Virus record (IMG/VR): IMGVR_UViG_3300036785_000450
Coordinates: 1 to 62,593 of that record
Length of the DNA: 62,593 nt
Reading direction: 5' to 3' (one strand)
Origin: a virus
The notes under the pieces are model-generated. The model saw only the letters and a list, made by a program, of their open reading frames with translations. It was not told where the DNA came from and did no database searches. Shown here in pieces: positions 1,287 to 2,268 of this stretch. A program made the position numbers and the translations under genes. Every line of letters begins with the position of its first letter. Position 1 is the stretch's first letter.

Positions 1287-1517
1287 TCATCCTGCCTGGA
1301 ACTCATCCACGCTGTGGGAGGCACTGATTTCAGGTCGGGCCAGGTGCCAGTGCGGAGGGACAGTGAAGGTACTGAACTGGGACAGGATGTGCTCCTGGAA
1401 GGCTTTGACAGCGGCCTGAGCCTCGGGCAGAGATTGGGCCTGGAAGGTAGCGGCGAGGGTGACGCTCAGGTCCACGCTGGTCAGGTAGGTCTTCGGTGCG
1501 GTGTTCTCTGTGCTCAC
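1287..1517 (-). CDS. Hypothetical phage protein, 76 aa
   Basis: A small soluble protein of unknown function with no recognised domain. The GTG start overlaps the TGA of the upstream gene (GTGA, 4-nt overlap), the usual sign of translational coupling in this genome. The sequence GAGGAG upstream is the end of the preceding coding region and can double as ribosome-binding site. Confidence 0.65.
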   Translation of the reverse strand: MSTENTAPKTYLTSVDLSVTLAATFQAQSLPEAQAAVKAFQEHILSQFSTFTVPPHWHLARPEISASHSVDEFQAG

Positions 1518-1930
1518 GTCGTCTCCTCGTCTGGCGGTGTGACACCGCTACGACGCAATATTCCTCTCGCCAGGTCCATGACATCGGGGAAGTACCGGAA
1601 GATCGGCCTCCACTCCAGCCATAGCACGGAGTACTCGACCGTCATGACGACCTGATCCATCTCCAGCAGCCTGAGGTAACCGCTCTGAGGACGGCCGTTA
1701 CCTCTACGGATCAGGGACACAGCGGCCCACAGCGGTCCCCGAGAGTCCAAGCTGCCCTGACGGAGCATGAAGCCGGAGGCCGACCGCATCATCTGCTCCC
1801 AGTAACCAGGACCGTAGTTGGTGTGCTGGCGCAACCAGGAACAGTCGCTCCAGCAGGCCCGGCCGTAGGCGGTGATGACGGGCTCCAGTACCAGGGGCAG
1901 ATCCTGGGCCTGCAACAACAGGATGCTCAT
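1514..1930 (-). CDS. Hypothetical phage protein, 138 aa
   Basis: No family was recognised. The protein is rich in Trp, Leu and Tyr and lacks a signal peptide or a clear membrane helix. The start ATG has a strong Shine-Dalgarno (GGGAGGAG, 5 nt upstream). It lies about 105 nt downstream of the small Cys-pair gene that follows the tRNA, and is coupled to the next gene by a GTGA overlap. Confidence 0.7.
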   Translation of the reverse strand: MSILLLQAQDLPLVLEPVITAYGRACWSDCSWLRQHTNYGPGYWEQMMRSASGFMLRQGSLDSRGPLWAAVSLIRRGNGRPQSGYLRLLEMDQVVMTVEYSVLWLEWRPIFRYFPDVMDLARGILRRSGVTPPDEETT

Positions 1931-2035: not shown

Positions 2036-2182
2036 CTAGCTCTCGGTCGGCTCCTCAGGGAAGAGCTTGCCCCAGGAGTTGTCCCAGTCCTCCTGGGTGT
2101 CGAGCGGCTTGCCCATATCACAGAAGCCACAGTCAGGGTCGGTGCCGTCGCAGTACAGACAGTGTTCGGGTGCCTTGCCCAT
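2036..2182 (-). CDS. 48-aa protein with two CxxC pairs, starting directly after the tRNA
   Basis: The protein has C8-x2-C11 and C18-x2-C21, the spacing of a small zinc-binding knuckle, followed by an acidic tail ending in a plausible stop. The ATG lies one nucleotide beyond the discriminator base of the tRNA-Trp, and no Shine-Dalgarno is visible in the T-arm or acceptor sequence just upstream. Translation would therefore need a leaderless message, which 3' processing of the tRNA would produce. The function is unknown; metal binding is inferred from the Cys pairs only. Confidence 0.65.
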   Translation of the reverse strand: MGKAPEHCLYCDGTDPDCGFCDMGKPLDTQEDWDNSWGKLFPEEPTES

Positions 2183-2183
2183 G

Positions 2184-2251
2184 CGCTAGGCCCAGGAGTC
2201 GAACCCGGCCCGACGGTTTTGGAGACCGTCTCCCGCCCAGCGGCGCCTAAC
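2184..2251 (-). tRNA. tRNA-Trp (anticodon CCA)
   Basis: Folding by eye gives a 7-bp acceptor stem (GTTAGGC with GCCTAGC, one G-U), an anticodon stem ACGGT/ACCGT with loop CTCCAAA (anticodon CCA), a 4-nt variable loop, and a T-arm CCGGG/CCTGG around loop TTCGACT. The D-arm is short (about 4 bp with a 3-nt loop), giving 68 nt in all, so covariance-model scores may be low. No CCA tail is encoded. It heads the leftmost minus-strand unit. Confidence 0.8.
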
Positions 2252-2262
2252 CAGTGCCGGTC

Positions 2263-2268
2263 AGGATA
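2263..2268 (-). promoter_or_regulatory. Candidate -10 box for the tRNA unit
   Basis: TATCCT on the minus strand ends 11 nt before the first base of the tRNA, which would put the transcription start a few bases ahead of the mature 5' end. The same hexamer followed by GACC occurs at the promoter of the HARP-like gene (6086-6091). No classical -35 was seen. Confidence 0.4.

Follow-up and report, generated by a model that had tools for sequence, protein, structure and literature searches.

A phage gene that starts one base past a tRNA: a recurrent junction compatible with leaderless messages freed by tRNA maturation

In mitochondria, transfer RNAs (tRNAs) punctuate the genome, and their excision frees leaderless messenger RNAs (mRNAs). 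Among actinobacteria, a 5′-terminal ATG or GTG suffices for translation to start in mycobacteria (PMC4633059), tRNA cuts mapped in Streptomyces coelicolor fall between C74 and C75 of the encoded CCA (PMC4681348), and those within the CCA of Propionibacterium acnes always fall between the two Cs in the examples displayed (PMC3848588), as stated in the available excerpts of these papers. Here we describe a junction in a viral genome, IMG/VR record IMGVR_UViG_3300036785_000450, where a small open reading frame (ORF) of 48 amino acids (aa) begins a single base past the discriminator of a tRNA-Trp. The whole record, 62,593 nucleotides (nt; 62.6 kb) at 62% GC, was analysed and is referred to as the window. 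No report of leaderless mRNAs that derive from tRNA processing, bacterial or phage, was found in the PubMed Central (PMC) literature by title and start of abstract, a collection outside which most subscription journals lie, and no such case appears in the available parts of PMC4633059, PMC3848588, PMC4681348, PMC4448216 and PMC7438776.

ARAGORN identified a single tRNA within the window, at 2183–2251 on the minus strand, the last base of which is C74. The junction comprises the following features.

2184–2251, minus strand: tRNA-Trp (anticodon CCA), positions 1–73, without an encoded CCA and with a short D-arm (ARAGORN, fold, sub-threshold Rfam tRNA-Sec match).
2184, minus strand: discriminator G73 (sequence).
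2183, minus strand: C74, the sole base separating the discriminator from the start codon (sequence).
2186–2188, minus strand: in-frame TAG within the tRNA acceptor stem, which shuts the frame upstream of the ATG (sequence).
2036–2182, minus strand: 48-aa ORF with a C-x2-C-x6-C-x2-C pattern, an ATG start and no Shine-Dalgarno sequence (SD) (ORF, coding statistics, SD energy).

The ATG occupies 2182–2180, on the same strand as the tRNA, and opens the product MGKAPEHCLYCDGTDPDCGFCDMGKPLDTQEDWDNSWGKLFPEEPTES. The sequence-only reading had placed the tRNA end at 2184 and the ATG of a two-CxxC protein at 2182, and ARAGORN, the sequence and the ORF list bear this out. The next in-frame start, an ATG at codon 23, lies past both CxxC motifs, and the ATG at 2182 is the sole start that gives a protein with both. 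GC content at codon positions 1, 2 and 3 is 0.58, 0.46 and 0.83, and the codon score is 0.248 per codon, where the 464 true-frame windows taken from this genome have a median of 0.198; among 682 open wrong-frame windows, just 0.7% equal or exceed it. Because its codon usage matches that of the genome's true frames, we take the ORF to be a gene, with phage-like codon usage. Its product is probably a zinc-binding accessory protein, as the two CxxC motifs suggest.

The SD energy at the start is −2.4 kcal/mol, in agreement with the earlier remark that no SD is visible. Across the window, 40 of 58 genes reach −4.5 kcal/mol or lower at some start, a count that uses the best of several starts per gene, as do 23% of random positions. 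The three genes next downstream carry an SD just before their starts (GGGAGGAG, AGGAG and GAGGAG), the first of which provides the contrast:

1514–1930, minus strand: next gene downstream, 138 aa, with the strong SD GGGAGGAG (sequence, ORF list).

The 48-aa ORF has the sequence features of a leaderless mRNA (no SD, an ATG or GTG start) together with the geometry of tRNA punctuation, in which a coding sequence adjoins a tRNA in the same orientation.

Among named phages, the tail sheath of the virus is closest to those of Streptomyces myoviruses of the BRock group (36.5% identity to BRock itself), and for this reason the host is likely actinobacterial. We propose that the tRNA-Trp and the 48-aa gene would share one transcript, and that a host tRNA 3′-processing endonuclease, either of the RNase Z type or an actinobacterial activity of another kind, would cut it at the tRNA end, most likely past C74. 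The downstream product would then begin at the AUG or one base earlier, with a 5′ monophosphate, and ribosomes would read it without a leader; C74 would probably be retained by the tRNA to serve as the first C in its CCA. We regard co-transcription followed by 3′ cleavage as the best explanation, and hold it with roughly even confidence. It builds on the geometry, the coding signal and the absence of an SD observed at this locus, and on the recurrence and conservation of the junction observed in other phages. The sequence-only reading had likewise envisaged a leaderless message, released by RNase Z, and that idea holds up. Its cut directly after the discriminator, leaving C-AUG, fares less well: the actinobacterial cuts cited above fall between C74 and C75 (PMC4681348 and PMC3848588, in the excerpts available), and the same cut at the window site would place AUG at the very 5′ end.

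To assess recurrence, viral contigs were searched for a tRNA T-arm followed by CATG at the right distance, and the tRNAs were confirmed with ARAGORN, which kept 82 of 127 CATG matches, the window included. The viral pattern scans each list at least 120 stretches and the scan of bacterial and archaeal genomes at least 116, and the counts given here and below refer to the matches listed. Sequence duplicates, unclosed ORFs shorter than 60 aa and matches lacking ARAGORN confirmation were removed before counting. Where an ATG lay one base past a CCA-less viral tRNA (92 cases), it opened an ORF of at least 60 aa in 38; for 637 non-start codons in the same position the share was 6.3%. One-base and other-position counts were compared by Fisher tests. 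Since this set is enriched for CATG, it tells how such an ATG behaves, not how often one occurs. In matched scans, from which the window itself was left out, ORFs of at least 45 aa without a further tRNA followed the ATG in 37 of 80 cases at one base versus 8 of 37 at two (Fisher p = 0.014), and in 8 of 83 cases where the ATG overlaps an encoded CCA. A further 379 CCA-less tRNAs, from CATG and later loci, held 13 ATGs at one base, eight of which open ORFs that reach 60 aa or more.

Among 40 one-base viral ORFs of at least 40 aa, a set that contains the window and still includes at least one probable false case (L184), 34 have no alternative start supported by an SD. GTG is also used at one base (27 of 79, of which 17 lack an SD-supported alternative), and homologues exchange ATG and GTG at the exact junction codon, both behind tRNA-Asn (L157 and L730) and behind tRNA-Leu (L149 and L650). 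This use and exchange match the mycobacterial rule that a 5′-terminal ATG or GTG suffices (PMC4633059, available excerpt). Recognisable products of one-base ORFs include a uracil-DNA glycosylase and HD-domain, HNH, HAD and DUF4326 proteins. Searches of phages with tblastn returned no match for the L210, L192, L194 and L157 proteins, and a match in one Bacillus phage only for that of L240.

Two families of named phages keep the junction. In Lumosvirus, phages of Mycobacterium smegmatis, the protein was found in 22 records at E ≤ 1e-5, and all seven of these that were examined have tRNA-Pro, a C and then the ATG of a 57-aa gene. Two alleles of this tRNA-Pro differ at 38 of 74 positions (ungapped) and end at the same place. 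Substitutions in the gene are biased to third positions (8, 4 and 20 at codon positions 1, 2 and 3 between Whirlwind and Lolly9). Other genes behind tRNAs in three Lumosvirus genomes start 24–27 nt away, with an SD-like trailer such as TTGGAGG. In Stanwilliamsviridae, phages of Streptomyces represented by 83 records, all ten records examined have tRNA-Leu, a C and a start codon, which is ATG in seven and GTG in three, and the proteins are as little as 50% identical to the query. The junction is unchanged in Yaboi, whose dissimilar tRNA-Leu shows 41–43 differences over 76 positions (ungapped). Because Lumosvirus and Yaboi have swapped the tRNA and kept the junction, what is conserved is a tRNA ending one base before ATG or GTG, not a particular sequence. 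The one-base spacing and the frame, whose persistence in relatives the sequence-only reading had singled out as informative, are thus kept in two other phage families; the window gene itself is an orphan. Overall, the earlier interpretation is partly supported: the tRNA-abutting junction looks like a recurrent and conserved architecture, and the proposed mechanism is plausible. BRock has many tRNAs, and no ATG or GTG ORF of at least 35 aa lies one base past any ARAGORN tRNA in the two stretches covered, outside which its middle 12,523 bases fall.

Some public annotations place the Lumosvirus start elsewhere. Three of the seven records begin the gene inside tRNA-Pro (L357, 2950–3174; L358, 2959–3174; L361, 350–574), and the remaining four annotate it from the ATG past the tRNA. 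We also note that the window N-terminus MGKAPE (2165–2182) resembles the (M/V)EYxLGKAPEGYEW start of the tRNA-abutting Stanwilliamsviridae protein (L761–L770, at 301), through either homology or chance.

The distance of one base is partly explained by position 74. ARAGORN rewards C74, so this position was recounted in CCA-less viral tRNAs by an independent search, with the outcome unchanged: C in 104 of 128, T in 24 of 128, and never A or G. In BRock, C stands there in 12 of 12. As position 74 is always a pyrimidine, an ATG cannot begin there, and one base is the shortest gap that remains. This raises a rival, namely that a real ORF simply sits at the smallest gap that C74 permits, weakly translated without an SD and with no link to processing, or that the ORF is not expressed at all. 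The pyrimidine count favours such packing, as do the close-set Lumosvirus tRNAs, which are likewise separated by one C; in L356 (3470–3688), tRNAs Trp, Leu and His stand in succession, each pair of neighbours parted by a single C. The orphan status of the window ORF points the same way. Its protein has no PHROG or Pfam match, tblastn against phages gave one 39% match at E = 8 and nothing else, and four pattern stretches in viral contigs confirmed no relative. The tRNA-Trp 3′ half, as an exact pattern, is absent from viral contigs, and the two contigs nearest by helicase (L122 and L123) have no tRNA in the stretches covered, that of L123 stopping at the helicase. Packing alone, however, predicts many starts slightly further off, and of 140 ATGs 2–9 bases past CCA-less viral tRNAs only 12 open an ORF of 60 aa or more, a share much like that of non-start codons. 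We consider it unlikely.

Bacterial and archaeal genomes show the same pattern, with 63 ARAGORN-confirmed tRNAs counted from at least 116 loci, 22 of which open an ORF of at least 45 aa without a further tRNA. Long ORFs one base past a tRNA also occur in four contigs of Patescibacteria, the candidate phyla radiation (L478, L501, L510 and L513), and presumably include release-factor-like and YvcK-like proteins. The 22 include, behind the tRNA-Gln of Microbacterium, an ORF that we take, from its motif, to be glmU. In 80 Microbacteriaceae genomes, tRNA-Gln was present in 75; 70 of these loci were covered, one of them (L640) too short to reveal glmU, and glmU came next in 42. A start codon stands at one base in six of the 42 and at 0 or 2–5 bases in none, a distribution that counts against simple packing. 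Five of the six are ATG or GTG with no alternative, and the sixth, in L611, is a TTG followed later by a GTG that an SD supports. Three glmU loci have a TTG or GTG at 6–9 bases and another start further down, and the others start later, usually with an SD.

These same loci give the best case for a second rival, in which ribosomes start on the uncut precursor, with or without an SD-like stretch in the acceptor stem's 3′ strand, and tRNA folding and maturation compete with translation instead of enabling it. The tRNA-Gln acceptor is itself SD-like in the five glmU cases (−4.8 to −9.3), and in L584, L600 and L603 its end, GGAGGCGGAG, lies six bases ahead of the glmU start and makes a good SD (−9.3). 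An embedded SD is therefore a serious rival for glmU, and likely the explanation there. For the viral junctions we think it improbable: only 4 of the 40 one-base ORFs have an SD-like stretch of −4.5 or lower inside the tRNA, the remaining 36 missing that cut-off, the window tRNA end reaches only −2.4, and the swapped tRNA of Yaboi gives just −0.9 while the junction stays. A separate promoter inside the tRNA gene, yielding a leaderless transcript from the ATG, is very improbable, since no TANNNT-like −10 element is suitably placed in the tRNA on reading the sequence, the promoter scan was empty, and the replacement of the tRNA in Lumosvirus and Yaboi, with the junction kept, would have replaced an internal promoter too.

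Several points weigh against release of a leaderless mRNA by tRNA 3′ cleavage. The window ORF offers no relatives for a comparison of conservation, and its tRNA is atypical: the cloverleaf has a CCA anticodon, a 7-bp acceptor and a complete T-arm, with a D-arm that is very short and odd (ARAGORN, fold), and the best listed Rfam clan match is tRNA-Sec at 29.1 bits, under the gathering threshold of 47, the score of the general tRNA model not being displayed. The arrangement is rare, as an unselected sample of 300 CCA-less viral tRNAs held one ATG at one base and no ORF of at least 45 aa there. P. acnes has no obvious RNase Z (PMC3848588, available part). Lastly, the one-base ATG is probably accidental in four members of the L192 family (L363, L372, L373 and L375). 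This family was first accepted as support and then mostly dropped, as its relatives have an SD start 12–22 nt past the tRNA; 39 of 46 distinct sequences have a start in that interval, mostly preceded by a trailer SD, and L225 is the only member that still looks genuine.

The short D-arm and the sub-threshold Rfam score make decoding by the window tRNA-Trp uncertain. RNase Z reads the acceptor and T-arm of a tRNA, both of which are complete here, and the element at 2184–2251 could be a processing signal instead of a decoding tRNA. Upstream of it, one candidate signal was seen.

2263–2268, minus strand: TATCCT, a possible −10 element 11 nt ahead of the tRNA 5′ end (from a reading of the sequence).

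No −35 partner was seen for it, and a sigma-70 scan gave no promoter. Some 700 bases upstream of the tRNA (2252–2950) hold no evident gene; within them lie GGTACTAC repeats at about 2432–2499 and a 19-nt inverted repeat (79%) at 2501–2569. At the window's edge, positions 1–290 are G-rich, with diverged direct repeats containing GTCAGG or GTAGTCA at irregular spacing and no clear gene. A 164-aa ORF (288–782, ATG at 782) is also without an obvious SD, with a terminator-like hairpin just upstream (809–828). Promoter and repeat scans of the window yielded little further.

Beyond this locus, we suggest tentatively that phages and some bacteria use a CCA-less tRNA with C74 before ATG or GTG as a maker of 5′ ends, a cut past C74 yielding the tRNA end and a monophosphorylated leaderless mRNA in one step. 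If so, bacteria and phages would obtain leaderless mRNAs from tRNA maturation as well, and such starts would be misplaced by gene finders that demand an SD or take no account of RNA genes, as in the three Lumosvirus records annotated from inside the tRNA.

The systems known so far each share part of this arrangement. The CCA cuts of S. coelicolor and P. acnes fall past nucleotide 74, as proposed for the window, in tRNAs that, unlike this one, encode CCA, and the available parts of those papers discuss no coding sequence at the cut. Leaderless mRNAs made by the Escherichia coli toxin MazF (as cited in the available part of PMC3848588) also owe their 5′ end to an endonuclease, but MazF acts under stress and leaves a 5′-OH, whereas the 3′ ends of tRNAs are processed routinely, which would yield a 5′ phosphate. 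The leaderless mRNAs of M. smegmatis, S. coelicolor and P. acnes have an ATG or GTG without an SD and come from the probable host's phylum; in the mapped cases transcription begins on the codon or close to it, whereas RNA cleavage is proposed here. Mitochondrial tRNA punctuation differs in serving a whole genome, whereas here processing is proposed for single genes of a tailed phage; in both, a tRNA adjoins a coding sequence and its excision would free an mRNA without a leader. The junction would, on the tentative view above, be a bacterial counterpart of mitochondrial punctuation, making the expression of small phage genes, and of glmU in certain species, depend on the maturation of a tRNA.
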